Assembly (NCBI RefSeq): GCF_001425705.1
Contig: NZ_LMDC01000012.1
Coordinates: 189,402-253,401 of the forward strand
Reading direction: 5' to 3'
DNA from: Pelomonas sp. Root1217
GTDB lineage: Bacteria > Pseudomonadota > Gammaproteobacteria > Burkholderiales > Burkholderiaceae_C
DNA: 64,000 nucleotides
This document shows positions 26,719 to 44,937 of the stretch, piece after piece (the first letter of the stretch is position 1; every line of letters begins with the position of its first letter). The position numbers were made by a program, and so were the translations under genes. The notes below the pieces were generated by a model. It did not search any database, was not told the origin of the DNA, and was given only the letters and a program-made list of their open reading frames with translations.

Positions 26719-26855
26719 TTGTTCATGCTCGACAAGCGCCTTGATCGACGTTCTCTGCGGCAGGTGTCGCGTCAAGAGAACTTGGAAGGCCGCCCCGGGA
26801 TGGCTAGTGGCTAACCCGGACATGCGATGTGAAAACCAGCATCGAGAAGTCCAAA

Positions 26856-26893
26856 AATGTGATTAGTCGCGAATCGGTCGGGCCCCTAGCATC
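26856..26893 (+). promoter_or_regulatory. Shared 38-bp block, copy A (upstream of TonB receptor)
   Basis: It starts AATGTGATT, continues GTCGCGAATC and ends CCCCTAGCATC. The same block, with identical 38-base length, occurs at 30941-30978 and 42252-42289, each upstream of a sugar-utilisation transcription unit. The end (TAGCAT) could be a -10 element, but no good -35 sits 17 bases upstream, so an activator or special promoter is likely. It lies 89 bases before the receptor ATG. Confidence 0.7.
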
Positions 26894-26981
26894 ATTTCAG
26901 ACCCGAGTTACATCAGCCCCACAGAGGCTGAAGACGCTGACAGGGTTGGACCCGCTACCCCATAACGATTCCGGAGACACG

Positions 26982-29864
26982 ATGAAGAAACAAGGCCTGG
27001 CGCTGCTGCGTGAGCGCGCCCACATCCAGAGCTTGCCCAGCTTTGCCCTCAACCTCATCGCCGGCGCCGCGCTGACCGCCCTGTCCGGCGCCGCCGTGGC
27101 ACAGGAAGCCGCCAAGAACGACACGCAGCTGGAAACGGTGACCGTCACCGGCGTCAGGGCGTCGCTGACCAAGAGCCTGGCGATCAAGCGCACCAGCGAC
27201 CAGGTCGTGGAGTCGGTCGTTGCCGAGGACATCGGCAAGCTGCCCGACAACAATGTCGTCGAAGCGCTGCAGCGTGTGACGGGCATCCAGGTCACCAACC
27301 GCGCCGGCGGCGAAGTCGGCACCTTGTCCATCCGCGGCCTGCCCGATGTGGCAACCACCTGGAACGGCCGCAATATCTTCACCGCATCCGGTACGCAGGT
27401 GGCGCTTCAGGACATCCCGTCGACCCTGGTTCGCCAGATCGACGTCTACAAGACGCGCGACGCCGGCCAGTTGGAAAACGGCATCGCCGGCCAGATCGAC
27501 GTCAAGTCACTGCGTCCGTTCGATTTCAAGGGCTCGAAGTTTTCGCTTCTGGCGCGTGAAACCTATCTCGACCCGGCGAAAAAGTGGAACCCGCAGCTGA
27601 GCGGGCTGGCCAGCAACCGCTGGAAAACCGACGCCGGTGAATTCGGTGCGCTGGTCAATCTGTCGATGGTCAAGACGGACTACCGCAACGAAAGCGTGAC
27701 GCCGGGTGCCATGGTGCCTTTCACCAGCCCCAATGCCGCTGAAGTTCCGGCAGGCTATACCCCGCTGCAGCGGATCTTCGACAACAACATCTGGACGCCT
27801 GGGACCTATACCGGCCTGCCGCAGAAGGCGGGTTCGACGCTGAATTTCAACGGCACTGCACGCCCCTACTACCTTGCGCGGGACGCCGTTTTCCAGAGCG
27901 ACGTCGCGGGGCAGCGCGAGCGCCCGGCCGCTAACGTCGCCTTGCAGTGGCAACCGAACGACGATGCCGTCTACACGTTTGAAGCGATGTACAACGGGTA
28001 TCGCGACAAGACGTTCAACAAGCTGCTGTTCAGCTTCGTGGATTGGTGGGGCAGCCTGGGCAGCAACCCCGCGAGCACGATCACGACGTTCCCGGGAACA
28101 AACGTCATCAAGACGCGAAGCGTGAATGATGTCTATGGTTTCAACAGCGGCGACTACACCACGTCGGCCACCGATTCCTTCGTCTATGCGCTGAACGGCA
28201 AGTGGAATCTCGGTGACCGTCTGCGGCTGGACGGTGACGTGTCGTACCAGACCAGCAAGTACCACTCGGAATTCACCGCCACCCGCATCGATCGCGTTGC
28301 GCCGTCCATCAACGTGGATTTCAACTCCGGCGGCGGCAATATGGCCTTCCGCTTCAACGACAACGCCGAGTTGGCCGACCCCGCCAAGTGGAACGTGGCG
28401 CAGTTCTACGACAACGCCAACCGCAACCAGGGCAGCGCCGCAACTGCCAGCCTGTCCGGTGTCTACGATGCCGACTGGGGTCCGCTGAAGACACTGCATT
28501 TCGGCGGGCGCTTCGACAGCCGCAAGGCGTCGGAGGCCAACCGGACGCAATCGGCCTTCCTGGGCCGCAACCTGGCCTCGCTGGGTGCGAACTACTACCA
28601 CGTCAATTCGAATTTCGGCACCGATATCTCGGACGTCCCGCGCTCCTGGATCGAGCCGAATGCCTACTACATCCGCGACAACATCGATGCGTGGCGCAAG
28701 CTGTACAACTCGGTCGACGCCAATTTCCTGACGACCGACAAGCTGAGCCTGCAAAAGACCTTCGACGTCAAGGAAGACACCACCAACCTGTTCCTGATGG
28801 CCGATACCGAGCACGAGTTGTTCGGCCGTCGCCTGCGCGCCAACTTCGGCGTGCGCTACGTGCAGGTCGATACCAGCATGACCGCCTACAAGGTCGATCC
28901 CACCACCAAGGTGGTGACGCCGACCAACGGGGAGAAGTCGGCCAAGAAGTTCCTGCCCAGCCTGACGCTGCGCTACGAGCCGGTCAGGGATGTGCTGGTG
29001 CGCTTCAATTACGGTGAAACGCTGCGCCGCCCGAACTTCGGCGACCTCAATCCCATCATTCAGCCCAGCGACGACGTTTCCAAGGTGGGTTATGGCGGCG
29101 GCAGCGGCGGCAATCCCAACCTGGAACCGACACGCTCCAAGAACCTGGACCTTACCGGCGAGTGGTACTTCCAGAAGGACAGTGCGATCTACGGCACCGT
29201 GTTCCAACGCAAGATCGAGGGCCTGGTCGTGCCGCTGCGCCGCCGCATTCACTTGTCCCCGGCCGAAGATCCGTTCCGCAATTCCACGTCGGGAGGCGAC
29301 CACACGAACGGCTATGACTACGTCATCAGTTCGCCGGTCAATGCGTCCAACGGCAAGATCAGCGGCCTCGAACTGGGCGCCATCTACTTCCCGAAGGGCC
29401 TGCCGTGGTACCTGGATGGCCTGGGTTTCCAGGGCAGCGTCACGCGCCTGACGTCTTCGCAGAACGTGCCGACCGCCAACAACGCCGGCGAGATCGTCTC
29501 CCAGCTCGAGGGGCCGTTCTTTGGCGTATCCAAGCTGTCATGGAACGCCACGCTGGCCTACGAGAAGGGCCCGGTCGGCGCACGCCTGTCGTACGTCCGC
29601 CGCAACGCCTTCCTGTCCAGCAATGAAGCGGCGCTGTTCGCCAACCCGATCGGCATCTGGCGCCAGCCGGAAAAGAGCGTGGATTTCCAGCTGACCTACA
29701 ACATCAACGATCGCATGGCGTTCGACATCAGCGGCGTCAACCTGACCAACGAGATGCAGCAGCAGTACTACCACTTCGGCGACGCGGGCAGCCCGGAATT
29801 GACCAACTTCGGCACGGTCCAGATCGGACGCGCGGTCTCGGTCGGGTTCCGCTGGAAGATGTAA
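26982..29864 (+). CDS. TonB-dependent outer-membrane receptor (TIGR01782 type)
   Basis: A 960-residue protein. A long signal peptide ends GAAVAQ, followed by a TonB box-like TQLETVTVTGVRASL. A plug domain has KLPDNNVVEALQRVTGIQVTNRAGGEVGTLSIRGLP (pattern), and a beta-barrel ends in aromatic VGFRWKM. The plug sequence is that of the Xanthomonas/Caulobacter receptors for plant-polymer oligosaccharides. No SusD-like partner is present. The start at 26982 has GGAGACAC upstream; the frame extends to 26829 across the promoter block and is not used. It is followed by a strong terminator. Confidence 0.94.
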   Translation: MKKQGLALLRERAHIQSLPSFALNLIAGAALTALSGAAVAQEAAKNDTQLETVTVTGVRASLTKSLAIKRTSDQVVESVVAEDIGKLPDNNVVEALQRVTGIQVTNRAGGEVGTLSIRGLPDVATTWNGRNIFTASGTQVALQDIPSTLVRQIDVYKTRDAGQLENGIAGQIDVKSLRPFDFKGSKFSLLARETYLDPAKKWNPQLSGLASNRWKTDAGEFGALVNLSMVKTDYRNESVTPGAMVPFTSPNAAEVPAGYTPLQRIFDNNIWTPGTYTGLPQKAGSTLNFNGTARPYYLARDAVFQSDVAGQRERPAANVALQWQPNDDAVYTFEAMYNGYRDKTFNKLLFSFVDWWGSLGSNPASTITTFPGTNVIKTRSVNDVYGFNSGDYTTSATDSFVYALNGKWNLGDRLRLDGDVSYQTSKYHSEFTATRIDRVAPSINVDFNSGGGNMAFRFNDNAELADPAKWNVAQFYDNANRNQGSAATASLSGVYDADWGPLKTLHFGGRFDSRKASEANRTQSAFLGRNLASLGANYYHVNSNFGTDISDVPRSWIEPNAYYIRDNIDAWRKLYNSVDANFLTTDKLSLQKTFDVKEDTTNLFLMADTEHELFGRRLRANFGVRYVQVDTSMTAYKVDPTTKVVTPTNGEKSAKKFLPSLTLRYEPVRDVLVRFNYGETLRRPNFGDLNPIIQPSDDVSKVGYGGGSGGNPNLEPTRSKNLDLTGEWYFQKDSAIYGTVFQRKIEGLVVPLRRRIHLSPAEDPFRNSTSGGDHTNGYDYVISSPVNASNGKISGLELGAIYFPKGLPWYLDGLGFQGSVTRLTSSQNVPTANNAGEIVSQLEGPFFGVSKLSWNATLAYEKGPVGARLSYVRRNAFLSSNEAALFANPIGIWRQPEKSVDFQLTYNINDRMAFDISGVNLTNEMQQQYYHFGDAGSPELTNFGTVQIGRAVSVGFRWKM

Positions 29865-29892
29865 GCCCAAAGGCTGAACGCATCCGTGCCGT

Positions 29893-29935
29893 GGGCGTTG
29901 CACGGGCCCTCGCCGTGCAACGCCCTCCTTTTTTG
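29893..29935 (+). terminator. Strong rho-independent terminator after the TonB receptor
   Basis: A 13-bp perfect stem GGGCGTTGCACGG / CCGTGCAACGCCC, a 7-base loop, then TCCTTTTTTG. It should end most receptor transcripts before the GH43 gene that starts 12 bases later. Confidence 0.9.
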
Positions 29936-29946
29936 CCGCCGCAGCC

Positions 29947-30912
29947 ATGTCTGACCTGCCTGAGCCATTGATCACGCCGCTGATCCGCCAGCGCGCCGAC
30001 CCGCACATCTCCCGCCACGCCGACGGCTTCTACTACTTCACCGCGTCGGTGCCGCAGTACGACCGCGTCGAGATCCGCCGGGCCCTCGCCATCGAGGGCC
30101 TGGCGGATGCGCCGGTCTTCGACGTCTGGCACAAGCCCGACACAGGGCCGTACTCGGAGCTGGTCTGGGCGCCCGAGCTGCATTTCAACGACGGCGCCTG
30201 GTACGTCTACTTTGCTGCCGCGCCGACCCGGGCGCTGGATGGCCTGGGCATGTTCCAGCACCGCATGTACGCGATTCGCAATCAAGCCGGGGACCCGCTC
30301 GGCGGCACCTGGGAGTTCATGGGCCAGGTCGACAGCGGCATCGACAGCTTCTGCCTGGACGCGACCACCTTCACGCACCGCGGTCAGCTCTATTACCTGT
30401 GGGCGCAGAAGGACCCGGCCATCCCGGGCAATTCCAATCTCTACCTCGCGCCGATGAAAACACCCTGGCAGCTGGGCGGCGCGCCGGTGTTGTTGAGCCG
30501 GCCCGAGTACGACTGGGAGTGCCGCGGCTTCCTGGTCAACGAAGGGCCGTCGGCGCTGCAGCGAAACGGCCGCGTCTTCATCAGCTACTCGGCCAGCGCC
30601 ACCGACGAGAACTACGCGATGGGCCTGCTGTGGGCGGACGACGGCGCCGACCTGCTGGACCCGGCGAGTTGGCGCAAGTCCGTCCAGCCGGTCATGCGCA
30701 GTTGCGCCGAGGACAGCGTCTTCGGCCCAGGCCACAACAGCTTCACGACGGGCCAGGACCCCGACGAGGTGCTGCTGGTCTATCACGCCCGCACCTACAC
30801 CGAGATCGTCGGCGACCCGCTGTGGAACCCCGACCGCCACAGCTTTGTGAAGCCGCTGCGGTGGTCGGCCGACGGCATGCCGCTGTTTGGTAAGCCTTCC
30901 CGGCTGGATTGA
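29947..30912 (+). CDS. GH43 family glycosidase without signal peptide (arabinofuranosidase-like)
   Basis: A 321-residue five-bladed propeller enzyme. RQRADPHISRHADGFYYFTAS places the catalytic base Asp at residue 18, LDATTFTHRGQLYYLWAQ carries the pKa-modulating Asp, and YDWECRGFLVNEGP carries the acid Glu. No export signal is visible, so it should act on imported arabino-oligosaccharides in the cytoplasm. It starts right after the receptor terminator and may be expressed by read-through. The arabinonate dehydratase operon with its own promoter block follows. Confidence 0.9.
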   Translation: MSDLPEPLITPLIRQRADPHISRHADGFYYFTASVPQYDRVEIRRALAIEGLADAPVFDVWHKPDTGPYSELVWAPELHFNDGAWYVYFAAAPTRALDGLGMFQHRMYAIRNQAGDPLGGTWEFMGQVDSGIDSFCLDATTFTHRGQLYYLWAQKDPAIPGNSNLYLAPMKTPWQLGGAPVLLSRPEYDWECRGFLVNEGPSALQRNGRVFISYSASATDENYAMGLLWADDGADLLDPASWRKSVQPVMRSCAEDSVFGPGHNSFTTGQDPDEVLLVYHARTYTEIVGDPLWNPDRHSFVKPLRWSADGMPLFGKPSRLD

Positions 30913-30940
30913 TGCCGGTTTCGATATCGATACGTTGTGG

Positions 30941-30978
30941 AATTTGATTGGATCGCGTATCCCTCGGCCCCTAGCATC
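30941..30978 (+). promoter_or_regulatory. Shared 38-bp block, copy B (upstream of arabonate dehydratase operon)
   Basis: It starts AATTTGATTGG, continues ATCGCGTATC and ends CCCCTAGCATC. Its last 11 bases are identical to copy A. It lies 87 bases before the ATG of the dehydratase gene, nearly the same distance as copy A from its gene (89), which supports a promoter role. Confidence 0.7.
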
Positions 30979-31064
30979 GTTTGACGGGCTGCCCGCGTCT
31001 GCATGGCGCAGCCAGCCCCATGAAGCGGCAAACCTGCGTGCCGGGAACGACATCGAGACAACAC

Positions 31065-32819
31065 ATGACGACTGACGACAAGAAGAGCAAGGTCAAGCTG
31101 CGCTCCGCCGAGTGGTTCGGCACCCAGGACAAGAACGGTTTCATGTACCGCTCCTGGATGAAGAACCAGGGCATCCCCGACCATGAATTCCAGGGCAAGC
31201 CCATCATCGGCATCTGCAACACCTGGAGCGAGCTGACCCCCTGCAACGCCCACTTCCGCAAGCTGGCCGAGCACGTCAAGCGTGGCATCCTGGAGGCGGG
31301 CGGCTTCCCCGTCGAGTTCCCGGTGTTCTCCAACGGCGAGAGCAATCTGCGCCCGACCGCCATGCTGACGCGCAACCTCGCCAGCATGGACGTCGAGGAA
31401 AGCATTCGCGGCAACCCGATGGACGCCGTCGTGCTGCTGGTGGGCTGCGACAAGACCACGCCGGCCCTGCTGATGGGCGCGGCCAGCGTCGACGTGCCGG
31501 CCATCGTCGTCACCGGCGGCCCCATGCTCAACGGCAAGCTCAAGGGCAAGAACATCGGCTCGGGCACGGCCGTGTGGCAGCTGCACGAGCAGGTCAAGGC
31601 CGGCGAACTCAGCATGCACGACTTCATGGCCGCCGAGGCCGGCCACTCGCGCTCGGCCGGCACCTGCAACACCATGGGCACGGCCTCGACGATGGCCTGC
31701 ATGGCCGAGGCGCTGGGCACGTCGCTGCCGCACAACGCCGCGATTCCCGCCGTCGATGCGCGCCGGTATGTGCTGGCCCATTTGTCGGGCATGCGCATCG
31801 TCGAGATGGTGTGGGAGCAGCTGACACTGTCCAAGGTGCTGACCAAGGAAGCCTTCGAGAACGCCATCCGCGTCAACGCCGCCATCGGTGGCTCGACCAA
31901 CGCCGTCATCCACCTGAAGGCCATCGCCGGGCGCATCGGCGTGGACCTGGAGCTGGAGGACTGGACCCGCATCGGCCGTGGCACGCCCACCGTCGTGGAC
32001 CTGCTGCCTTCGGGCCGCTTCCTGATGGAAGAGTTCTATTACGCCGGCGGCCTGCCCGCCGTCATCCGCCGCCTGGGCGAGGGCGGCCTGCTGCCGCACA
32101 AGGACGCGCTGACCGTCAACGGCAAGAGCCTGTGGACCAACTGCGTGGACGCGCCCATCTATGACGACGAAGTCATCCGCCAGCTGGACAAGCCGCTGAT
32201 CGCCGACGGCGGCATCTGCATCCTGCGCGGCAACTTGGCGCCGCGCGGTGCCGTGCTCAAGCCCTCGGCCGCCACGCCCGAGCTGATGAAGCATCGCGGC
32301 CGTGCCGTCGTATTCGAGGACTTCGAGGACTACAAGGCGCGCATCGTCGATCCCGACTTGGACGTCGACGCCAATTCAATCCTCGTCATGAAGAACTGCG
32401 GCCCCAAGGGCTACCCCGGCATGGCCGAGGTCGGCAACATGGGCTTGCCCCCGAAGCTGCTCGCTGCTGGCGTCAAGGACATGGTGCGCATCTCGGATGC
32501 GCGCATGAGCGGCACCGCCTACGGCACCGTCGTGCTGCACGTCGCGCCCGAAGCGCGCGCCGGTGGGCCGCTGGCCGTGGTCAAGGAGGGCGATTTCATC
32601 GAGCTCGACTGCGCCGCCGGCCGCCTGCACCTGGACGTGCCCGAGGCCGAACTGGCCGAGCGCCTGGCTGCCTGGGCCGCGGCACAGACCGTCGACCCCC
32701 AGGACGCCAGTGGCTACCGCAGCCTGTACGTGCAGCACGTGCTGCAGGCCGACGAGGGCTGCGACTTCGACTTCCTGCGCGGCAAGCGCGGCTCTGCCGT
32801 CCCGCGCCATTCTCATTAA
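31065..32819 (+). CDS. IlvD/Edd family sugar-acid dehydratase (L-arabonate/D-xylonate type)
   Basis: A 584-residue protein. Three cysteines in family positions can hold a [2Fe-2S] cluster: Cys60 (ELTPCNAHF), Cys128 (VGCDKTTPAL) and Cys201 (SAGTCNTMGTAST). The opening RSAEWFGTQDKNGFMYRSWMKNQG (pattern) is typical of L-arabonate and related pentonate dehydratases, not of IlvD itself. It converts L-arabonate to 2-keto-3-deoxyarabonate (D-xylonate or D-fuconate are alternatives). ATG 31065 follows the promoter block. The semialdehyde dehydrogenase starts 9 bases after the stop. Confidence 0.92.
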   Translation: MTTDDKKSKVKLRSAEWFGTQDKNGFMYRSWMKNQGIPDHEFQGKPIIGICNTWSELTPCNAHFRKLAEHVKRGILEAGGFPVEFPVFSNGESNLRPTAMLTRNLASMDVEESIRGNPMDAVVLLVGCDKTTPALLMGAASVDVPAIVVTGGPMLNGKLKGKNIGSGTAVWQLHEQVKAGELSMHDFMAAEAGHSRSAGTCNTMGTASTMACMAEALGTSLPHNAAIPAVDARRYVLAHLSGMRIVEMVWEQLTLSKVLTKEAFENAIRVNAAIGGSTNAVIHLKAIAGRIGVDLELEDWTRIGRGTPTVVDLLPSGRFLMEEFYYAGGLPAVIRRLGEGGLLPHKDALTVNGKSLWTNCVDAPIYDDEVIRQLDKPLIADGGICILRGNLAPRGAVLKPSAATPELMKHRGRAVVFEDFEDYKARIVDPDLDVDANSILVMKNCGPKGYPGMAEVGNMGLPPKLLAAGVKDMVRISDARMSGTAYGTVVLHVAPEARAGGPLAVVKEGDFIELDCAAGRLHLDVPEAELAERLAAWAAAQTVDPQDASGYRSLYVQHVLQADEGCDFDFLRGKRGSAVPRHSH

Positions 32820-32828
32820 GGACTCCTC

Positions 32829-34415
32829 ATGAGCAACACCATCCAAGGCCTGGCGCTGATCGGCGGCCAGCCGGTGCGCGGCGCGGGCAAGCCCTTCCAG
32901 GCTTTCGATCCGGGCAAGAACGAAGCCATCGGCCCCGACTTCAACGCCGTCGACGCGGCCCAGGTGTCTGAAGCCTGTGCCCTCGCCGGCGCCGCGTTCG
33001 ACACCTTCCGGGCCACCAGCGACCAGGAGCGTGCCGACTTCCTGGAGCAGATCGCCGCGCAGATCCTGGCGCTGGGCGACGACCTGATCGTGCGCGCCAT
33101 GGCCGAGACTGGCCTGCCGCGTGCCCGCCTGGAAGGCGAGCGTGGCCGCACGATGAACCAGCTCAAGCTGTTCGCCGAGCTGCTGCGCGAAGGCAGCTGG
33201 CAGGACGCCCGCATCGACACGGCGCTGCCCACCCGCACACCGCCGCGGCCGGATCTGCGCCTGCGCTTCGTCGGCGTCGGCCCGGTGGCCGTGTTCGGCG
33301 CCAGCAACTTCCCGCTGGCCTTCTCGGTCGCCGGTGGCGACACCGCCGCGGCCCTGGCCGCCGGCTGCCCGGTCGTCGTCAAGGCGCACTCGGCCCACCC
33401 GGGCACGTCCGAGCTGGTCGGCCGCGCGGTCGTCGAGGCGGTCAAGCTGTCCAAGCTGCCTGCCGGCGTCTTCGCGCTGCTGACCGGCAGCGGCCACGGC
33501 ATCGGCGACACGCTTGTGCGCCACCCGGCTATCCAGGCTGTGGGCTTCACCGGCTCGCGCAGCGGTGGCATCGCGCTGATGGCCGCGGCGGCTTCGCGGC
33601 CCCAGCCCATCCCGGTCTATGCCGAGATGAGCAGCATCAACCCCGTCGTCCTGCTGCCCGGCGCGCTGGCCGCACGCGGCGCCGAGATCGCGACCGGCTT
33701 CGCGGGTTCGCTGACGATGGGTGTCGGCCAGTTCTGCACCAACCCTGGCCTGGTGCTGGGCCTGGCCAGCGCGGATTTCGACCGCTTCGCCAGCGCCGCT
33801 GCCGAGGCGCTCAAGCCCGTGCCGGCCGCCACCATGCTGACTCCCGGCATCGCTGGCGCCTACCAGCGCGGCGAGGACCAGCTTGCCGGCCAGCCGGCCG
33901 TCGACACGTTGCTGCGCGGCGAATCGAGTGCCTGCAAGGGGGCGCCCAGCCTGTTCAAGACGACCGGCGCGGCCTTCCTGGCCAACCACGCGATGCAGTC
34001 CGAGATCTTCGGCCCCGCCTCGCTGCTGGTGGCCTGCTCGGACCTGGACGAACTGCTCGCCGTCATCGAGAGCCTGGAAGGCCAGTTGACCGCCACGCTG
34101 CAGCTGCAGGACGACGACGAGGTCGACATCGCCGCCGCTCGCCGCCTGCTGCCGGCGCTGGAGCGCAAGGTCGGCCGCATCCTGGCCAACGGCTACCCGA
34201 CGGGCGTCGAGGTATCGACGGCCATGGTCCATGGCGGCCCCTTCCCGGCGACCAGCGACGGCCGCAGCAGCTCTGTCGGCACGGCCGCCATTCAGCGCTT
34301 CCTGCGCCCGGTCTGCTACCAGAACATGCCGCGCGCGCTGCTGCCGCCGGTGCTGCGCGAACCGAACGAGCGTGGCCTCTGGCGCCGCCGCGACGGCGCG
34401 CTGACGCGCAACTGA
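32829..34415 (+). CDS. Alpha-ketoglutarate semialdehyde dehydrogenase (NADP-type aldehyde dehydrogenase)
   Basis: A 528-residue protein with FGASNFPLAFSVAGGDTAAALAAGCPVVVKAHSAHPGTSEL (pattern), VGFTGSRSGG, the catalytic Glu in YAEMSSINPVVL and the nucleophile Cys303 in GQFCTNPG. These are hallmarks of the alpha-ketoglutaric semialdehyde dehydrogenases that finish pentose and hexarate oxidation. It should oxidise 2,5-dioxopentanoate to 2-oxoglutarate, the last step of the non-phosphorylated arabinose route. It is probably cotranscribed with the dehydratase and the GH51 gene (35-base gap with AGGAGAC). Confidence 0.93.
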   Translation: MSNTIQGLALIGGQPVRGAGKPFQAFDPGKNEAIGPDFNAVDAAQVSEACALAGAAFDTFRATSDQERADFLEQIAAQILALGDDLIVRAMAETGLPRARLEGERGRTMNQLKLFAELLREGSWQDARIDTALPTRTPPRPDLRLRFVGVGPVAVFGASNFPLAFSVAGGDTAAALAAGCPVVVKAHSAHPGTSELVGRAVVEAVKLSKLPAGVFALLTGSGHGIGDTLVRHPAIQAVGFTGSRSGGIALMAAAASRPQPIPVYAEMSSINPVVLLPGALAARGAEIATGFAGSLTMGVGQFCTNPGLVLGLASADFDRFASAAAEALKPVPAATMLTPGIAGAYQRGEDQLAGQPAVDTLLRGESSACKGAPSLFKTTGAAFLANHAMQSEIFGPASLLVACSDLDELLAVIESLEGQLTATLQLQDDDEVDIAAARRLLPALERKVGRILANGYPTGVEVSTAMVHGGPFPATSDGRSSSVGTAAIQRFLRPVCYQNMPRALLPPVLREPNERGLWRRRDGALTRN

Positions 34416-34450
34416 AGATCAACACAAGACAAACGACAGGAGACAAGACG

Positions 34451-36004
34451 ATGAAGAAGCAACTGCTCGCCAAGGTGGTCGCGCTGGGGGCGACCCTGGC
34501 CCTGGGCGCCAGCGCCCTGGCCGCCGACATCAAGCTGGTGGTCAACCCCGACCAGCCCGGCCCCGTCATCCACCGCAACATCTACGGCCAGTTCGCCGAG
34601 CACCTGGGCACCGGCATCTACGAGGGCATGTGGGTCGGTCCCGACTCCAAGATCCCCAACGTGCGCGGCTGGCGCAAGGACGTCGTCGCGGCGCTCAAGG
34701 AGCTCAAGGTGCCGCTGGTGCGCTGGCCCGGCGGCTGCTTCGCCGACGAATACCACTGGCGCGAAGGCATCGGCCCGCGCAAGCAACGCCCGGTCAAGGT
34801 CAACAGCAACTGGGGCGGTGTGCCCGAGGACAACGCGGTTGGCACGCACGAGTTCTTCGACCTCGTCGAGCAGATCGGCGCCGAGGCCTACGTCAACGGC
34901 AACCTGGGCACCGGCAGCGCGCAGGAAATGTCCGAATGGCTGGAGTACATGACGGCCGAGGGCAAGTCTTCGCTGGCCGAGCTGCGCCGCAAGAACGGCC
35001 GTGACAAGCCCTTCCGCGTGCACTACTTCGCCGTCGGCAACGAGACCTGGGGCTGTGGCGGCAACATGCGCCCCGAGTACTACGCCGACCAGTTCCGCCA
35101 GGTCGCCTCCTTCCTGAGGGCACCCGGCCACAACCGGCCCATCATCATCGCCAGCGGCGGCAACGGCATGCAGACCGAGTGGACCGACGTGCTCAGCAAG
35201 GGCGTGCCGGGCGTCAACGCGATCTCCCACCACGCCTACACCCTGCCCACCGGCAACTGGGAAAAGAAGGGCGCGGCCATCGGCTTCCCCGAGAGCGAAT
35301 GGATCTCGACGCTGGGCAACGTCCAGCAGATCGAGCAGATGATCGCCAAGAACTCGGCCGTCCTCGACAAGAACGACCCCAGCAAGAAGATCGGCTTCTA
35401 CTTCGACGAGTGGGGCAGCTGGTATGACGCGGACCCCGGCACCAACCCCGGCTTCCTGGTCCAGCGCAACACGCTGCGCGACGCGCTGCTCGCGGCCCTG
35501 CACTTCAACGTCTTCCACGCCCATGCCGACCGCGTGCAGATGACCAATATCGCGCAGATGGTCAACGTGCTGCAGGCCATGATCCAGACGACCAAGGACA
35601 AGCTGGTCCTGACGCCGACCTACCACGCCTTCGCGCTGTACACGCCCTTCCAGGACGCGACCTCGCTGCCCGCCAAGATCGAGAACAACCCGGTCTACAA
35701 GGTCGGCGCGGCCGAGATGCCGGGCCTGAGCGTGACGGCCGCGCGGGCCAAGGACGGCAAGCTCTACGTCGGCCTGGTCAACGCCAACCCCAACCAGCCC
35801 GCCGAGCTGAGCGTGCAGGTCGGCGCCGGTGCAGCCAAGGCCGCGCGCGGCAAGCTGCTGACCGCCGCCGCGATGGATGCGCAAAACGAACTGGGCAAGG
35901 CGCCGCTGGTCACGCCGCAGGCCTATGAGGCGCAGGCCGTCGGCGGCAAGCTCACGCTGAAGCTGCCTGCCAAGTCCGTCCTGGTCGTCGCCATCGAAGG
36001 CTGA
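34451..36004 (+). CDS. GH51 alpha-L-arabinofuranosidase, exported
   Basis: A 517-residue protein. The signal peptide ends GASALAAD. The (beta/alpha)8 domain starts IHRNIYGQFAEHLG. The acid/base Glu198 is in VGNETWGCGGNM and the nucleophile Glu320 in FYFDEWGSWY. The C-terminal beta-domain is of the arabinofuranosidase type. It removes terminal alpha-L-arabinofuranosyl residues. Most GH51 enzymes of this shape are cytosolic, so the clear signal peptide is notable. Three bases separate it from the GH43 gene. Confidence 0.94.
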   Translation: MKKQLLAKVVALGATLALGASALAADIKLVVNPDQPGPVIHRNIYGQFAEHLGTGIYEGMWVGPDSKIPNVRGWRKDVVAALKELKVPLVRWPGGCFADEYHWREGIGPRKQRPVKVNSNWGGVPEDNAVGTHEFFDLVEQIGAEAYVNGNLGTGSAQEMSEWLEYMTAEGKSSLAELRRKNGRDKPFRVHYFAVGNETWGCGGNMRPEYYADQFRQVASFLRAPGHNRPIIIASGGNGMQTEWTDVLSKGVPGVNAISHHAYTLPTGNWEKKGAAIGFPESEWISTLGNVQQIEQMIAKNSAVLDKNDPSKKIGFYFDEWGSWYDADPGTNPGFLVQRNTLRDALLAALHFNVFHAHADRVQMTNIAQMVNVLQAMIQTTKDKLVLTPTYHAFALYTPFQDATSLPAKIENNPVYKVGAAEMPGLSVTAARAKDGKLYVGLVNANPNQPAELSVQVGAGAAKAARGKLLTAAAMDAQNELGKAPLVTPQAYEAQAVGGKLTLKLPAKSVLVVAIEG

Positions 36005-36007
36005 GCC

Positions 36008-37564
36008 ATGAGCGCCCCCAAGCGACGCGAGTTCCTCGCGGGCGCAGCCGTGCTCACCTTGACGGCCTGCGGCGGGGGCGGCGGCGACTCGCCGGCGCCT
36101 TCGCCTGCACCGACGCCGGCACCCGCTCCGCCTCCCGCACCTGCACCCGCGCCCGCGCCGGCCCCAGCGCCTGCGCCTTCGCAGGCACCGGTGAGCTTCG
36201 CCAACGTCGCCGTGCATGACCCCTCGGTCATCCGCACCGACGGCACCTTCTACGTCTTCGGCTCCCATCTCGCCGCGGCCAAGACGACGGACCTGATGAA
36301 CTGGACCAAAGTGGCCGATGGCGTCAACGACGCCAACGCGCTGTTCGGCAACAAGGTCACGACGGCCCTGGCGGATACCTTCGCCTGGGCCCAGGTCACC
36401 GACCTGTGGGCGCCCGACGTCGCAAGGCTCGACGACGGCAAGTTCTACATGTATTACTGCGCCTGCAAGGGCGACTCTCCGCGTTCGGCGCTGGGCGTGG
36501 CCGTGGCCGACAAGGTGGACGGCCCCTACGTCAACAAGCAGATCCTGCTGAAATCGGGCATGTGGGGGCTGCCCAGCGAGGACGGCACGGTCTATGACGC
36601 GACCGTCCACCCCAACGTCGTCGACCCCCAGGTGTTCAAGGACGCAACGGGCAAGCTGTGGATGATCTACGGCTCCTACTCGGGCGGCCTGTTCATCCTG
36701 CAGCTGAACGCGACGACCGGCCTGCCGCTGCCGGGCCAGGGCTACGGCAGGCACCTGATGGGCGGCAACCATGCGCGCATTGAAGGGGCCTACGTTCTCT
36801 ACAGCCCGCAGAGCCAGTACTACTACCTGTTCACGTCCTTCGGCGGCCTGGATGCGGCCGGCGGCTACAACGTCCGCGTGACGCGGTCCCTGCAACCCGA
36901 TGGGCCCTACGTGGATGGTGCCGGCACCGACATGGCCACCGTCAAGGGTGCGGCCGGCACGGTCTTTGACGACGCCAGCATCACGCCGCACGGCATGAAG
37001 CTGATGGGCGGCCACCAGTTCGCCAACGCGGCCGGCGAGACCGGCACGGCGCTGGGCTATGTCTCGCCGGGCCACAACTCGGCCTACCACGACGCGGCCA
37101 CCGGTCAGTACTTCATCATCTTTCACACGCGCTTCCCTGGCACCGGCGAGGTCCACGAGGTGCGGGTGCACGAGATGCATCTGAACGAGGACGGCTGGCT
37201 CGTCGTCGCGCCGCTGCGCTACGCGCCGCTGAGCCTGGCCACGCCGGCGCAGACGGCCGACGTCAGCGCCGCGCAGGCGGCCGGCAACTACAAGCTCGTC
37301 AACCATGGCAAGGACATCACGGCAGTGAGCAAGACTTCGATCAACGTCACGCTGAACGCCGATGGCACGCTCGGCGGCGGCATGACAGGCAACTGGATGC
37401 ACAAGGGCAGCAACAAACTGAGTGTGGTGAGCGGCGGAGCGACCTATGCCGGCGTACTGTCCCGGCAATGGAACACCAACTCCAGCGCATTCGTCGTGAC
37501 CTTCAGCGCGCTGTCCTCCGGCGGCGTGTCGCTGTGGGCGGTTCGCACAGGGAGCTCGCAATGA
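36008..37564 (+). CDS. GH43 arabinanase/arabinosidase-like lipoprotein with Ala-Pro linker
   Basis: A 518-residue protein. Its Tat-type lipoprotein leader is KRREFLAGAAVLTLTAC (Cys21). About 40 residues of Gly/Ser then alternating Ala-Pro form a stiff spacer (22-62). The GH43 propeller starts VHDPSVIRTDGTFYVFGSH, with DPQVFKDATGKLWMIYGSYSGG and a late Glu in RIEGAYV. A C-terminal beta-domain (about 420-518) resembles the end domain of extracellular endo-1,5-alpha-L-arabinanases. It is probably tethered to a membrane and cuts arabinan. The stop overlaps the next start (ATGA). Confidence 0.9.
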   Translation: MSAPKRREFLAGAAVLTLTACGGGGGDSPAPSPAPTPAPAPPPAPAPAPAPAPAPAPSQAPVSFANVAVHDPSVIRTDGTFYVFGSHLAAAKTTDLMNWTKVADGVNDANALFGNKVTTALADTFAWAQVTDLWAPDVARLDDGKFYMYYCACKGDSPRSALGVAVADKVDGPYVNKQILLKSGMWGLPSEDGTVYDATVHPNVVDPQVFKDATGKLWMIYGSYSGGLFILQLNATTGLPLPGQGYGRHLMGGNHARIEGAYVLYSPQSQYYYLFTSFGGLDAAGGYNVRVTRSLQPDGPYVDGAGTDMATVKGAAGTVFDDASITPHGMKLMGGHQFANAAGETGTALGYVSPGHNSAYHDAATGQYFIIFHTRFPGTGEVHEVRVHEMHLNEDGWLVVAPLRYAPLSLATPAQTADVSAAQAAGNYKLVNHGKDITAVSKTSINVTLNADGTLGGGMTGNWMHKGSNKLSVVSGGATYAGVLSRQWNTNSSAFVVTFSALSSGGVSLWAVRTGSSQ

Positions 37565-39927
37565 AACGCCTTCTCGCCATCTTCGCCCTCGCGCTGTGTG
37601 CCCACGGCGCGCATGCGGCGACGCAAGCCTTTGCGCTGGATCGTGTACGTCTACAGGACGGGCCGTTCCTCGACGCGCAGAGCACCGACCTGCGCTACCT
37701 GATGGCGCTCGACCCCGAGCGCCTGCTGGCGCCCTTCCGCCGCGAGGCCGGCCTGCCGGTGCCTACGCCCAGCTACGGCAATTGGGAGTCCCACGGCCTG
37801 GACGGTCACATGGGCGGCCACTATGTTTCAGCGCTGGCGCTGATGTGGGCCTCCACCGGCGACGCTGAGGTCAAGAAGCGACTGGACTACTTCATCGCCG
37901 AACTCAAGCGCTGCCAGGAGAAGCTCGGCAACGGCTACATCGGCGGCGTTCCCGACGGCGCCAAGGCTTGGGGCCAGGTGGCCGCGGGCGAGCTCAAGGT
38001 CGAAAGCTTCGGACTCAACGGGCGCTGGGTGCCCTGGTACAACCTCCACAAGACGTTCGCCGGCCTGCGCGACGCCTGGGTGCACGCCGGCAATGCCGAC
38101 GCCAAGGCCATGCTCGTGCGCCTGAGCGACTGGGCGCTGCGCCTGACCACGCCGCTGAGCGACGCGCAGATGCAGGACATGTTGCGCGCCGAGCACGGCG
38201 GCATGAACGAGGTGCTGGCCGACGTGGCCGAGATGACCGGCGACCTGCGCTACCTGGCGCTGGCGCGGCGCTTCTCGCACCGGGCCATCCTGCAGCCGCT
38301 CGCGGCCGGCCAGGACAAGCTCACCGGCCTGCATGCCAACACGCAGATCCCCAAGGTCATCGGCTTTGCGCGCATCGCGCAGCAGGCTGGCGAGGACGAG
38401 GGCTGGCGCGCGGCGGAGTTCTTCTGGCGCACCGTCGTCGAAAAGCGCAGCGTGGCGATCGGCGGCAACAGCGTCAAGGAGCACTTCCATCCGGCCGACG
38501 ACTTCAAGCCGATGCTCGACGCGGTGGAAGGCCCCGAGACCTGCAACAGCTACAACATGCTCAAGCTGACCGCGCTGCTGGCGCAGGCCCGGCCGAAGCA
38601 GGGCGCGGGAACGGGCAAGTACGCCGACTACTACGAGCGCACGCTCTACAACCACATCCTCGCGTCCCAGCACCCGGGCGATGGCGGCTTGGTCTACTTC
38701 ACGCCGATGCGGCCGCAGCACTACCGCGTCTACTCCAAGGTGGACGACAGCATGTGGTGCTGCGTGGGCTCCGGCATCGAGAGCCACGCGCGTCACGGCG
38801 AGTTCATCTACGCGCATGAGGGCGACGACGCACTGGTCGTCAACCTCTTCGTCGCCTCCAAGCTGGACTGGCGCGAGCGCGGCATCAAGCTCACGCAGTC
38901 CACCCGGTTCCCCGACGAGTCGCGCACGCGGCTGACGGTGGACGGCGCCGGCAGCTTCGCGCTCAAGGTTCGCTACCCCGGTTGGGTCGCGCCCGGCGCG
39001 CTGAGGGTCAAGCTGAACGGCAACCCCGTCAAGGTGACGGCCAAGCCCGGCGACTATGTCGAACTGCGCCGCGACTGGAAGGCCGGCGACCGGGTCGACA
39101 TCGAGCTGCCCATGCGCACGACGCTGGAGCCCATGCCCGGCCTGAAGAACTACGTCGCCGTGCTGCACGGCCCCATCGTGCTGGCCGCCAAGACGCCGCA
39201 GCCGGGCGAGACGCTGAACTTCATGGCCGACAGCGCGCGTGGGGACCAAGTCCCGGCCGGCGCCGTTTGCCCGCAGGACAGCGCGCCGGTGTTCGTCAGC
39301 GACAAGGCCGACTTCATCCGCCGCTTCAAGCCCGTGCCCGGCCAGCCGCTCACCTTTACCGCGCCCGACCTCATCCAGGGTGGCAAGGACGCGGACAAGC
39401 TGCAGCTCATCCCCTTCTTCCGCCTGCACGACTCGCGTTACATGGTCTATTGGGCGCGGTCCACGCCGGCCCAGCAGAGCCTGATGCGTGCCGAGCTGGC
39501 CAAGGCCGAGGAAGAGCGCCTGGCGCTGGACGCGCAGACCATCGACCAGGTCGCCCCGGGCGAGCAGCAGCCCGAGTCCGACCACAGCTTCCAGGGCGAG
39601 GGCGCCGAAACCGGCATCGCGCCGGCCGGCCGCTGGCGGCATGCGAAGCAGTGGTTCGGCTACACGCTGAACGACCCGCAGGCACAGGGCCGGCTGCTGC
39701 GCCTGATGCTGGCCAGCGGCGATGCGGGCCGGCGCTTTGACGTGGTCGTCAACGGCCGTGTCGTCGCCGAGCTGGCGCTGGCCTCCGAAGCCCAGCCGCT
39801 GTATGCCCGCGAAGTGCCACTGCCGCCCGATCTCGTCGCTGCCGCAGGCGGCAAGCTGGAGGTGCGCTTCGTTGCCAAGCCGGGTTCCCTCGCCGGTGGC
39901 CTCTACGGCCTGAGGCTGTTGCGTTGA
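37561..39927 (+). CDS. GH127/GH146-type beta-L-arabinofuranosidase (DUF1680)
   Basis: A 788-residue protein with signal peptide (LAIFALALCAHGAHA). The (alpha/alpha)6 barrel carries the zinc/nucleophile site of the family: Glu326 and Cys328 in GPETCNSYNMLKL, and the Cys400-Cys401 pair in MWCCVGSGIESHARHGEF. The second half has a jelly-roll and DUF4986-like domains. The family hydrolyses beta-L-arabinofuranosyl ends (hydroxyproline-linked arabinan, extensin, some pectin and xyloglucan side chains). It is translationally coupled to the GH43 gene through ATGA. Confidence 0.92.
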   Translation: MKRLLAIFALALCAHGAHAATQAFALDRVRLQDGPFLDAQSTDLRYLMALDPERLLAPFRREAGLPVPTPSYGNWESHGLDGHMGGHYVSALALMWASTGDAEVKKRLDYFIAELKRCQEKLGNGYIGGVPDGAKAWGQVAAGELKVESFGLNGRWVPWYNLHKTFAGLRDAWVHAGNADAKAMLVRLSDWALRLTTPLSDAQMQDMLRAEHGGMNEVLADVAEMTGDLRYLALARRFSHRAILQPLAAGQDKLTGLHANTQIPKVIGFARIAQQAGEDEGWRAAEFFWRTVVEKRSVAIGGNSVKEHFHPADDFKPMLDAVEGPETCNSYNMLKLTALLAQARPKQGAGTGKYADYYERTLYNHILASQHPGDGGLVYFTPMRPQHYRVYSKVDDSMWCCVGSGIESHARHGEFIYAHEGDDALVVNLFVASKLDWRERGIKLTQSTRFPDESRTRLTVDGAGSFALKVRYPGWVAPGALRVKLNGNPVKVTAKPGDYVELRRDWKAGDRVDIELPMRTTLEPMPGLKNYVAVLHGPIVLAAKTPQPGETLNFMADSARGDQVPAGAVCPQDSAPVFVSDKADFIRRFKPVPGQPLTFTAPDLIQGGKDADKLQLIPFFRLHDSRYMVYWARSTPAQQSLMRAELAKAEEERLALDAQTIDQVAPGEQQPESDHSFQGEGAETGIAPAGRWRHAKQWFGYTLNDPQAQGRLLRLMLASGDAGRRFDVVVNGRVVAELALASEAQPLYAREVPLPPDLVAAAGGKLEVRFVAKPGSLAGGLYGLRLLR

Positions 39928-39992
39928 CTGATGGCAGCGGCGCAATGTTGCTGCTCATGGACAAGCGCCTGGCCTTGCGTTGTTGGCACCAC

Positions 39993-40016
39993 GTTCGCGG
40001 CGCAGATGCCGCGAAC
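39993..40016 (+). terminator. Hairpin between the GH127 and second GH51 genes
   Basis: A perfect 9-bp stem GTTCGCGGC / GCCGCGAAC with a 6-base loop and no T-run. It may be an RNA-stability or partial termination element within the glycosidase operon. Confidence 0.45.
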
Positions 40017-40067
40017 CTCACACATAAGCGCCCGCAAGCGCAGTTTCACTCACGGACCATCCTGCCC

Positions 40068-42113
40068 ATGACCTCGAACATTCCATCGCACAGCGCCGCC
40101 ATGCCCATCGTGCAACGCCGCTTCCGCCTCTCCCGCCTGGTGTCGCTGGTTGCGCTGATCGCCCCGCTGGCGATGGCGCAGACCACCGTCAGGATCGACC
40201 TCACCAAGCCTGGCCTGCCGGTCAGCCCGACCCTGTACGGTTTGATGACCGAGGAGATCAACTTCTCCTACGACGGCGGCCTGTATGCGGAACTGGTGCG
40301 CAACCGCGCCTTCAAGAATCACGGCTACACGCCGGAACACTGGTCGCTGGTGCAGGACGCCGGCGGCAGCGCCGCGATGGCGCTCGACGAGCGTTACCCG
40401 GTCGCCGGCACTGCCCTGACGACCAGTCTGCGGATCGACGCCGAGAACGCTTCGCCGGGTCACCGTGTCGGTATCGCCAATGCGGGCTACTGGGGCATCC
40501 CTGTCACGCCGAACACCAGCTACCGCGCCAGCTTCTACGCCAAGACGTCCGGCGCCGCCGGCGTGCCGCTGACCATTAGCATTGAAGGCGTCGACGGCAA
40601 GACCGTCTACGCGCAGGCCGAAGGCGGCCGCATCGACGGTCAATGGAAGCGCTATAGCGTCACCCTCACCACCGGTGCGAACGTCAAGCCGACCGCCGAA
40701 GCGCGCCTGGTGCTTGCCACCGAAAGCCCGGGCAAGGTGTGGTTCAACCTTGTGTCGCTGTTCCCGCCGACCCACAAGGACCGGCCGAACGGCCTGCGGC
40801 CCGACCTGATGCAAAAGATGATCGACATGAAGCCGGGCTTCCTGCGCTTTCCCGGCGGGAACTATGTCGAAGGCGGCAGCGTGACGAACCGCTTCAAGTG
40901 GAAGGAAACGCTGGGCCCGATCGACCAGCGTCCAGGCAATCCCGGCACCTGGGGCTACCGCTCCACCGACGGCATGGGGCTGCTCGAATTTCTGCTGTGG
41001 TGCGAGGACATGAAGGCCGAGCCGGTGCTGGCGGTGTTCGCCGGCTACGCGCTCAACGGCGAGTCCGTCCCGGTCGGCAAGGAACTGCAGCCCTTCGTCC
41101 AGGACGCGCTTGACGAGATCGAATATGTGACCGGCGACGTGAGCACGAAGTGGGGCGCCAAGCGCGCCAAGGACGGCCATCCGGCGCCGTTCAAGCTGCG
41201 CTATGTCGAGATCGGCAACGAGGATGGCTTCGAGAAGAACAAGACCTACGACGGCCGCTACACCCAGTTCCACGACGCCATCAAGAAGAAGTACCCGAAG
41301 ATCAAGCTGATCTCCACCGTCAACGGCAAGGACTGGTTGGGCCAGCAACAGAAGGTGTCCAGCCGGGTGCCCGACCTGGTCGACGAGCATTACTACTACA
41401 GCCCGATGAAGATGATGAACGACGCCGCGCGCTACGACAGTTATGCGCGCAGCGGGCCGAAGGTCTTCATCGGCGAATGGGCCGGGCACGAAGGCTCGCC
41501 GACCACCAACCTGCACGCCGCACTGGCCGATGCCGCCTTCATGGCCGGCATGGAGCGCAATGCCGACATCATCGAGATGGCTTGCTACGCGCCGCTGTTT
41601 GTGAACGTGAACCCGGGCGGCATGCAGTGGCAGCACAACCTGATCGGCTACAACGCGCAGTCCAGCTACGGCTCGCCGTCGTACTACGCGCAAAAGATGT
41701 TCAGCAACTACCTGGGCAATGTGTCGCTGCCGGTGCAGGCCGAGAAGGTCAGCATGCAAACCTGGCAGGAGGAGGCCAAGAAGGAGACGCCGCAGGACGT
41801 GCCGCCGGCCAGGCAGGTGCCGACGATGTTCTTCTCGGCGACCAAGTCGGACCAGCGCGGCGAGATCTACCTGAAGGTCGTCAACGCGATCGGCAACGCG
41901 CAGACGGTGCAGGTCGACCTGGCCGGCGCCGCCAAGGTGGCGGCCGAAGGCGAGGCCATCGTACTGAGCTCGGCGCACAAGGAAGACACCAACACCATCA
42001 CCGAGCCGACCAAGGTGGTGCCGGTGACGAGCAAGGCGAGCGGGCTCGGCAAGCAGTTCAGCTATAGCTTCGCGCCGTATTCTGTGACGGTGCTGGTGCT
42101 GTCGACCAAATAG
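40068..42113 (+). CDS. GH51 alpha-L-arabinofuranosidase, large exported form with carbohydrate-binding module
   Basis: About 681 residues from ATG 40068; ATG 40101 also gives a signal peptide ending LIAPLAMAQ. After the leader come TLYGLMTEEINFSYDGGLYAELVRNRAF (pattern), a CBM4/9-like beta-sandwich (about 90-240), and the catalytic barrel with FLRFPGGNYVEG, the acid/base Glu in VEIGNEDGF and the nucleophile Glu in FIGEWAGHEG. An arabinofuranosidase C-terminal domain ends the protein. It differs clearly from the GH51 gene at 34451 and belongs to the larger plant/Bacteroides-like subgroup. Nothing directly couples it to the next gene. Confidence 0.93.
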   Translation: MTSNIPSHSAAMPIVQRRFRLSRLVSLVALIAPLAMAQTTVRIDLTKPGLPVSPTLYGLMTEEINFSYDGGLYAELVRNRAFKNHGYTPEHWSLVQDAGGSAAMALDERYPVAGTALTTSLRIDAENASPGHRVGIANAGYWGIPVTPNTSYRASFYAKTSGAAGVPLTISIEGVDGKTVYAQAEGGRIDGQWKRYSVTLTTGANVKPTAEARLVLATESPGKVWFNLVSLFPPTHKDRPNGLRPDLMQKMIDMKPGFLRFPGGNYVEGGSVTNRFKWKETLGPIDQRPGNPGTWGYRSTDGMGLLEFLLWCEDMKAEPVLAVFAGYALNGESVPVGKELQPFVQDALDEIEYVTGDVSTKWGAKRAKDGHPAPFKLRYVEIGNEDGFEKNKTYDGRYTQFHDAIKKKYPKIKLISTVNGKDWLGQQQKVSSRVPDLVDEHYYYSPMKMMNDAARYDSYARSGPKVFIGEWAGHEGSPTTNLHAALADAAFMAGMERNADIIEMACYAPLFVNVNPGGMQWQHNLIGYNAQSSYGSPSYYAQKMFSNYLGNVSLPVQAEKVSMQTWQEEAKKETPQDVPPARQVPTMFFSATKSDQRGEIYLKVVNAIGNAQTVQVDLAGAAKVAAEGEAIVLSSAHKEDTNTITEPTKVVPVTSKASGLGKQFSYSFAPYSVTVLVLSTK

Positions 42114-42136
42114 GTCGCCAGTACCGCGTGGACGCG

Positions 42137-42175
42137 CTGTGTCGGTTCCTTTGTTTACATGGCATTCCGACACAG
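42137..42175 (+). terminator. Inverted repeat after the second GH51 gene
   Basis: A 9-bp perfect inverted repeat CTGTGTCGG / CCGACACAG with a 21-base T-rich loop, 24 bases after the stop. It could form a long-loop hairpin ending the glycosidase transcript, but a protein-binding dyad is equally possible. Confidence 0.4.
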
Positions 42176-42251
42176 ATGCGGCGACCGCGCCAGGCGCTCG
42201 GCCAGAGGTGAGAGACTGGCCCATACCGAAATCGACATGGCTTGACGGAGA

Positions 42252-42289
42252 AATGTCATTGGTCGCGCATCACTGGCCTTCCTACCATC
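42252..42289 (+). promoter_or_regulatory. Shared 38-bp block, copy C (upstream of sugar ABC operon)
   Basis: It starts AATGTCATTGG, continues TCGCGCATC and ends CCTACCATC. It aligns without gaps to copy A over 38 bases and is the most diverged copy in its second half. The ATG of the binding-protein gene is only 32 bases after it, much closer than at the other two sites. Confidence 0.6.
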
Positions 42290-42320: not shown

Positions 42321-43271
42321 ATGAGAATTCTGCGTCGCAGCCTGCTGGCCGCCGCTTTGCTGACCCCCGCGTTCAGTGCCCTCGCCGCCCCGCTCGTCAT
42401 GGGCTTCTCCCAGGTGGGCGCCGAAAGCGAATGGCGCACGGCCAATTCCGCGTCCATCAAGGCTGCAGCCAAGGAGGCCGGCATCACGCTGAAGTTTGCC
42501 GACGCGCAGCAAAAGCAGGAGAACCAGGTCAAGGCCATCCGCAGCTACATCGCGCAGAAGGTCGACGTCATCGCCTTCTCGCCGGTCGTCGAATCCGGCT
42601 GGGACACGGTGCTCAAGGAAGCCAAGACGGCCGGCATCCCTGTCATCCTGACCGACCGCGCCGTCAAGGTGGCCGATCCGTCGCTGTACGTGACCTTCAT
42701 CGGCTCGGACTTCGTCGAAGAAGGCCGCAAGGCGGGCAAGTGGGTCCTGGAGCGGGCGGCCAAGGCGCCGGGCGGCGCCCTGAACATCGTCGAGCTGCAG
42801 GGCACCGTGGGCTCGGCCCCGGCCATCGACCGCAAGAAGGGCTTCGAGGAAGCCATCAAGGGCAACCCCAAGCTGCAGATCATCCGTTCGCAGTCGGGCG
42901 AGTTCACGCGTGCCAAGGGCAAGGAAGTGATGGAGTCCTTCCTGAAGCAGCGCGACAAGAAGATCGACGTGCTGTTCGCGCACAACGACGACATGGCGAT
43001 CGGTGCCATCCAGGCGATTGAAGAGGCGGGGCTCAAGCCCGGTCAGGACATCGCCATCGTGTCGATCGACGGCGTGCGCGGTGCCTTCGAAGCGATGAAG
43101 GCCGGCAAGCTCAACGTGACCGTCGAATGCAACCCGCTGCTGGGGCCGCAGCTGATGCAGTTGGCCAAGGACGTGGTCGCCAAGAAGCCGGTAGAAAAGC
43201 GCATCACCGTGACGGAGGGCGTGTACACGGCGGATCAGGCGGCCAAGGAATTGCCGAACCGGAAGTACTGA
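42321..43271 (+). CDS. ytfQ: Sugar ABC transporter substrate-binding protein (YtfQ/galactofuranose type)
   Basis: A 316-residue periplasmic protein. Its signal peptide ends PAFSALAA. The binding fold carries MGFSQVGAESEWRTAN, IAFSPVVESGWDTVLKEAK, ILTDRAV, GSDFVEEGRKAG and FAHNDDMAIGAIQAIEEAG. The opening FSQVGAESEWR is that of YtfQ-like proteins, which bind furanose sugars, so arabinofuranose or galactofuranose is the likely ligand. ATG 42321 is preferred over 42309 because GGAGACAACC then gives proper spacing. It is the first gene of the importer operon. Confidence 0.93.
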   Translation: MRILRRSLLAAALLTPAFSALAAPLVMGFSQVGAESEWRTANSASIKAAAKEAGITLKFADAQQKQENQVKAIRSYIAQKVDVIAFSPVVESGWDTVLKEAKTAGIPVILTDRAVKVADPSLYVTFIGSDFVEEGRKAGKWVLERAAKAPGGALNIVELQGTVGSAPAIDRKKGFEEAIKGNPKLQIIRSQSGEFTRAKGKEVMESFLKQRDKKIDVLFAHNDDMAIGAIQAIEEAGLKPGQDIAIVSIDGVRGAFEAMKAGKLNVTVECNPLLGPQLMQLAKDVVAKKPVEKRITVTEGVYTADQAAKELPNRKY

Positions 43272-44914: not shown

Positions 44915-44937
44915 ACCTGGCCCCGCCGCCCCTCGCC

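Follow-up and report, generated by a model that had tools for sequence, protein, structure and literature searches.

A conserved promoter element and a predicted LysR-type regulator of arabinan and arabinose genes in Pelomonas sp. Root1217

Three similar blocks of sequence stand before three sets of arabinose-related genes in a 64,000-nucleotide stretch of Pelomonas sp. Root1217 (contig NZ_LMDC01000012.1, positions 189,402 to 253,401, hereafter the window, numbered from its first letter), which raises the question of what they are and which protein acts on them. A preliminary description made from the letters took these 38-bp blocks, called A, B and C here, for the signature of a regulon. We find it very probable that they are the promoter halves of LysR-type activator promoters belonging to an arabinan/arabinose regulon, with a LysR-family gene at C12:261555-262535 as the predicted regulator.

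The blocks themselves are real and far beyond chance. All three 38-mers occur where they had been placed (26856-26893, 30941-30978 and 42252-42289), each contains TCGCG-x-ATC, and the 3' ends read CTAGCATC in A and B and CTACCATC in C; the pieces ATnTnATT, TCGCGnATC and CTAsCATC are common to them. They had been said to align end to end, which is too strong: ungapped identities are 27/38 for A and C, 22/38 for A and B and 18/38 for B and C. To bring block B into register with the model described below takes one inserted base and one deleted base; since these cancel each other, the equal length is partly accidental. Because of the same indels, exact patterns built from the three blocks matched A and C only. 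The distances of 89 (A) and 87 (B) bases from block end to start codon were confirmed, the corresponding distance for C being 32. The 38-bp unit is not complete: it was cut through a longer element that reaches about 30 bp further upstream.

The whole element spans about 68 bp, of which the 38-bp block is the promoter-proximal half, and consists of an imperfect 18-bp dyad, an ATTGG box over a weak -35, and TAGCAT or TACCAT as -10. Its three copies are as follows.

26826-26843, + strand: copy A, upstream dyad GATGTGAAAACCAGCATC, proposed LysR recognition site, centre -64.5
26856-26893, + strand: copy A, 38-bp block with an ATTAG box over the -35 and -10-like TAGCAT at 26887-26892, predicted start about 26899
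30911-30928, + strand: copy B, upstream dyad GATGCCGGTTTCGATATC, proposed recognition site, centre -64.5
30941-30978, + strand: copy B, 38-bp block with an ATTGG box and -10-like TAGCAT at 30972-30977, predicted start about 30984
42222-42239, + strand: copy C, upstream dyad CATACCGAAATCGACATG, proposed recognition site, centre -64.5
42252-42289, + strand: copy C, 38-bp block with an ATTGG box and -10-like TACCAT at 42283-42288, predicted start about 42295

The dyad has the form GATAC-N8-GTATC, that is ATA-N10-TAT, a core of the T-N11-A type, and lies at a fixed distance upstream of the block, with its centre at -64.5 from the predicted start in A, B and C alike and conserved in relatives. In the window's own dyads, 4 (A), 5 (B) and 6 (C) of the 9 pairs are complementary, and their half-sites are variants, namely ATG/CAT in A, ATG/TAT in B and ATA/CAT in C. 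Among 24 elements from relatives that served for training (see below), the left half-site is ATA in 21 and ATG in 3, and the right one is TAT in 19, CAT in 4 and GAT in 1. The ATTGG...AT box at -35 is also conserved in relatives, with no clear dyad there. With TAGCAT, TAGCAT and TACCAT taken as -10 sequences (each 4 of 6 to TATAAT), the starts would fall at 26899, 30984 and 42295, giving predicted leaders of 83, 81 and 26 bases. The -35 candidates TTAGTC, TTGGAT and TTGGTC agree with TTGACA at 2, 3 and 3 of 6 positions, and the spacer is 18 bp in all three copies. The preliminary description, which saw no fitting -35, was half right: a weak hexamer lies 18 bp before each -10, while a strict sigma-70 scan of 26700-31100 gave no site. 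An activator-dependent promoter, as it had proposed, is the best reading of the element.

The same layout recurs in other genomes. The binding-protein gene behind copy C was used as a query, giving 80 loci from named genomes, the closest of which include Roseateles, Mitsuaria, Rugamonas, Duganella and Massilia. The promoters of 29 of these loci were read by eye beside those of the window, and in 24 of them the long layout is visible as GATAC-N8-GTATC, a linker, AAAATnTnATTGGATAGATAT, a short gap and CTAnnAT; within the 200 bases inspected it was not seen in the other five (L021, L025, L057, L058 and L062). TCGCG is, judging from the alignment, a local feature of the window's loci: most aligned relatives differ at this position, and a strict TTRG-TCGCG-nAT pattern had only one match outside these loci (L068), which does not continue like the element. 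Rfam at its gathering threshold gave no match in the window.

A sequence-only model, R1, was built from 26 aligned elements of 24 loci, none from the window. Run on the 6.65-Mb genome, it returned four matches at E<=5, led by C (5.3e-9), A (8.9e-6) and B (1.5e-3). The preliminary description had named random or housekeeping matches in a genome-wide scan as the outcome that would speak against it; with A, B and C in ranks 1 to 3, its reading stands. The weak fourth match (E 0.21) lies ahead of a GH27-type gene and is probably real, because its relatives in two further species of the genus (84 and 86% identity) have an element that scores better. A matrix built from 24 of the 26 elements (L022 and L026 were left out for a longer spacer) gave C 55.1, A 48.7 and B 39.8, ranks 1-3 of 127,858 positions in the window. 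Scored alone in the window, the dyad places the copies at ranks 2-4, the ATTGG part at 1-3 and the -10 part at 3-9, and the linker does not single them out. An earlier matrix from the same 24 elements, which had three training rows out of register, scored the copies 47.2, 44.3 and 31.4, whereas the highest score in 40 Markov-shuffled windows was 4.9.

The genes behind the element are of a consistent kind. In the genus, 34 of 37 matches precede TonB-receptor, dehydratase, furanose-ABC or GH27/28/43 genes: TonB receptors 11 times, dehydratases 15 times (block B included), binding proteins four times, GH27 genes twice, and GH43 and GH28 genes once each. One more precedes a ROK-family regulator gene, and two are without an assigned target. 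Of these last, the match in L208 may be due to chance, its nearest long frame, H-NS-like by eye, being about 340 bp off. The ROK-family match (L197, G202:C26; 24.6 bits) was found in one species, where a regulatory cascade is possible. The idea of a regulon signature is borne out at the window's three transcription units.

As to the regulator, the preliminary description had guessed at the LacI, GntR or AraC families, but the loci point to LysR: an orthologue of the LysR gene is found in 40 of 52 element loci, against 2 of 52 for GntR, which alone of the three families has a gene beside the LysR gene. Many relatives have a LysR-family gene in the neighbourhood of the transporter operon (14 members in 22 loci compared). 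The window's genome has an 81% identical match at C12:261594, for which the likely ATG gives C12:261555-262535, equivalent to 72154-73134 in window numbering and about 8.2 kb past the window end. It follows a GntR/FCD gene by 13 bases, and before both lie GH97, GH43 and arabinofuranosidase genes. The protein has N-terminal PF00126 and C-terminal PF03466 domains, both above cutoff. Its nearest NCBIfam model is PcaQ (TIGR02424), an identity rejected at 190.7 bits against a cutoff of 303.8, and a PDB sequence search at E<=1e-20 gave no match.

A tree of 75 LysR rows contains a clade of 21 rows from Roseateles and Oxalobacteraceae, which includes the LysR of the window's genome, and a clade of 51 rows from Comamonadaceae with a Xanthomonadales-type branch. 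Both are well supported, while their joining and the placement of the paralogues are less so, with long-branch warnings. The element is present in both clades, and none was found at cutoff in a seven-row Xanthomonas/Pseudoxanthomonas/Solimonas branch. In the divergent gap next to LysR, four Xanthomonas loci (L050, L052, L054 and L055) share another sequence, roughly GATATTTGTTGCATATAG preceded by GTATA, which is perhaps a diverged operator.

Element and LysR gene occur together well beyond expectation. In a sample of 200 genomes of the family (LysR cutoff E<=1e-100; element search with stricter filters, which lose weak matches), 33 have the element and 29 the LysR, and 25 have both where 4.8 are expected (Fisher p = 6e-21). 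Among the 19 non-close family genomes with both, the element is 4-72 bp from a divergent LysR match in 16 and 1.8-4.8 kb away in three, distances here and below running to the start of the protein match and not to a mapped start codon. In the genus, 16 of 20 genomes have the element and 17 the LysR, 16 having both; the three genomes without LysR also lack the element, and the only LysR in G215, the fourth genome with no element, is a 56% one. Of the 80 named loci, 52 have the element, 49 the LysR and 40 both (Fisher p 1.1e-4). These counts leave out 4 of 62 matches, L077, L062 and the minus-strand L008 and L051 (E 0.015-0.049); 60 of the 62 are on the strand of the transporter gene, and the two reverse matches are weak (E 0.043 and 0.049). 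In the 28 element loci outside the R1 training set, LysR is found in 24, with the element 4-72 bp from a divergent LysR match in 24/24. These observations establish the element and its target genes, show that it is conserved with a fixed geometry, and link it genomically to the LysR lineage.

Several points weigh against assigning the element to this LysR. Of the 33 family genomes with the element, eight lack such a LysR at E<=1e-100 (their element matches have E 2.8e-4 to 9.4e-3, and at the threshold used about two chance matches are expected in 171 genomes), and four of the 29 LysR-positive ones have no element match. In the named loci, 12 of the 52 with the element have no LysR in the DNA fetched, and 9 of the 80 have LysR and no counted element match; among the latter, L062 (E 0.025, dropped) and L056 show a diverged element by eye, and Xanthomonas loci look different. 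The training elements are mostly orthologues of C, two preceding dehydratase genes like B and none a TonB receptor like A, so that the score of C partly reflects common descent. In the window's own genome, the LysR gene is near the three promoters, adjoins none of them and is not divergent, R1 found no element in the 22.6 kb containing it, and a second LysR gene, a paralogue 48-49% identical at C31, is a competing candidate for the binder.

That this C31 paralogue, or another LysR of the genome, binds the element in place of the C12 protein we hold to be highly improbable. Such paralogues are present and the operator grammar is LysR-type, but it is the C12 lineage for which the co-occurrence and the divergent positions were measured, no element was found in the 8 kb fetched around the C31 gene, and the LysR tree puts that gene outside on a long branch. 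It is likewise very doubtful that the element is the operator of the GntR/FCD regulator (L093:7358-8140), whose gene lies directly before the LysR gene. The two are kept side by side in 5 of 20 stretches compared, and in Halomonas a GntR-family AraR2 is predicted beside a LysR AraR (available text of PMC5507952). However, a GntR orthologue is found in three of 28 loci without the element and only two of the 52 with it, for which reason GntR was rejected as its binder, and a better GntR-type site, TAGTCATACTA, is located elsewhere, at 60586 and 60650. Most improbable of all is a promoter acting without LysR, whether plain, dependent on an alternative sigma factor or fused to a LacI/AraC operator: the -10-like hexamers and the ATTGG box do resemble a bipartite promoter, but the dyad at -64.5 is conserved along with the rest of the element, the element tracks the LysR gene in presence and position, and Pfam scans of selected proteins around it, covering those genes only, gave no AraC-type or LacI-type DNA-binding domain.

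The GntR-type site is an observation in its own right. TAGTCATACT, for which 0.02 occurrences would be expected in the window, is present twice, at 60586-60595 and 60650-60659, 64 bp apart, between a divergent SDR gene (59763-60527, - strand) and a DHDPS-family gene (60694-61677, + strand). The pair recurs in a sister species with unchanged spacing; the extended form, allowing at most one mismatch, has no other matches in the genome, and a reversed control has one. The pair may be the site of the GntR/FCD gene beside LysR, because its TAGT-N3-ACTA presumably resembles a GntR-type operator.

Returning to LysR as the predicted regulator, the genes that it would control in the window are listed below, with assignments from Pfam and NCBIfam.

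26982-29864, + strand: TonB-dependent receptor behind copy A (Pfam PF00593/PF07715; NCBIfam TIGR01782 above cutoff)
31065-32819, + strand: IlvD/EDD-family dehydratase, arabonate dehydratase-like, behind copy B (Pfam, NCBIfam)
32829-34415, + strand: aldehyde dehydrogenase-family gene (Pfam PF00171)
34451-42113, + strand: hydrolase genes together (Pfam), as the next four lines
34451-36004, + strand: alpha-L-arabinofuranosidase (Pfam)
36008-37564, + strand: GH43 (Pfam)
37468-39927, + strand: GH127 (Pfam)
39924-42113, + strand: arabinofuranosidase (Pfam)
42321-43271, + strand: YtfQ-like sugar-binding protein of a furanose ABC transporter, behind copy C (below YtfQ equivalog cutoff)
43361-49861, + strand: remainder of the ABC operon, YtfR-like ATPase to second permease domain, as the next four lines
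43361-44914, + strand: YtfR-like ATPase (below equivalog cutoff)
44938-47886, + strand: GH31-family gene in the ABC operon
47883-48890, + strand: YtfT-like permease (below equivalog cutoff)
frame ending 49861, + strand: second permease domain of the ABC operon

LysR proteins work as tetramers on a -65 and a -35 site. On this pattern the predicted regulator would occupy two sites, the upstream dyad ATA-N10-TAT with its centre at -64.5 and, nearer the start, the ATTGG...AT box over the -35; an arabinose-derived effector on LysR would then lead to recruitment of RNA polymerase to the weak -35/-10 pair with its 18-bp spacer. Three units would so be switched on jointly: the receptor in the outer membrane, the operon for the dehydratase and arabinan hydrolases, and the furanose ABC transporter in the inner membrane. 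Binding, the tetramer, activation rather than repression, and the start sites are all inferred here, as are the effector and the substrate, because the dehydratase, YtfQ, YtfR and YtfT labels fall below equivalog cutoffs; the dehydratase matches a subfamily model above cutoff but reaches 845 of the 882 bits required by the L-arabinonate dehydratase equivalog.

More broadly, we think it rather likely that a PcaQ-like LysR lineage specialised for arabinose has retained the same operator grammar throughout Burkholderiales (dyad at -64.5, ATTGG box, TA-n-n-AT), that in Roseateles its regulon has been rewired from one divergent promoter, the Comamonadaceae type, to several dispersed promoters for the whole of arabinan uptake, TonB receptor to ABC transporter, and that a second, GntR-type switch acts over dehydrogenase and aldolase-like genes. 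For the arabinan-utilisation regulon of a widespread plant- and soil-associated group, the present results supply a candidate for the regulator, the full operator and a list of targets, and they offer a clean case in which to study the spread of a LysR regulon from one divergent promoter to several. The element also predicts the function of other genes carrying it (GH27, GH28, GH43).

Some features around these genes may be added. A strong terminator-like hairpin at 29893-29925 (13 pairs, 10 of them G-C, then TCCTTTTTTG) lies between the TonB receptor gene and the GH43 gene that follows it; this GH43 gene lacks its own copy of the element. In L158, L161, L164, L101, L190 and L200 the receptor behind the counterpart of copy A is only 31-41% identical, whereas its neighbours are mostly far closer to the window's genes (about 70-100%); the receptor seems to have been exchanged behind a kept promoter in several relatives. 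The GH31-family gene codes for 982 aa with a PA14 domain and lies between the ATPase and permease genes of the ABC operon. Further along, dnaA (50956-52488, - strand) and dnaN (L093:10039-11154, + strand) are not adjacent: about 21.5 kb separates them, an interval that holds yidC and arabinose genes.

The mechanism proposed is of a known kind. The literature searched, which covered few subscription papers, gave no account of the regulator, full operator or targets in this group, nor of this regulator or motif in Burkholderiales; arabinose genes were described there as controlled by a LysR protein only in the Halomonas prediction. In the available text of PMC5002191, the PcaQ site is ATA-N10-TAT centred at -65.5, and a divergent layout is usual for the LysR genes studied and their targets. 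The element resembles the PcaQ protocatechuate promoters of Sinorhizobium in having this dyad near -65 (PMC5002191), but its targets here are sugar genes and not aromatic ones, and the LysR protein scores below the PcaQ cutoff. AraC of E. coli and the LacI-type and GntR-type AraR (PMC10204090, as far as its available text goes) have an equal physiological role and belong to unrelated protein families, and the same applies to the NrtR-type AraR (available text of PMC4666351). The closest precedent, by analogy, would be the Halomonas system, where a predicted LysR-family AraR is divergent from the arabinose operon and a GntR-family AraR2 is in the same locus (available text of PMC5507952). By its description, it likewise serves the oxidative L-arabinose pathway with a GntR regulator adjacent, and its divergent position matches that in the Comamonadaceae loci examined here (PMC5507952). 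In contrast, the regulon predicted for Halomonas in that text comprises araMFGHCY and araR (PMC5507952), whereas here the promoters are dispersed and include those of a TonB receptor and arabinan hydrolases.

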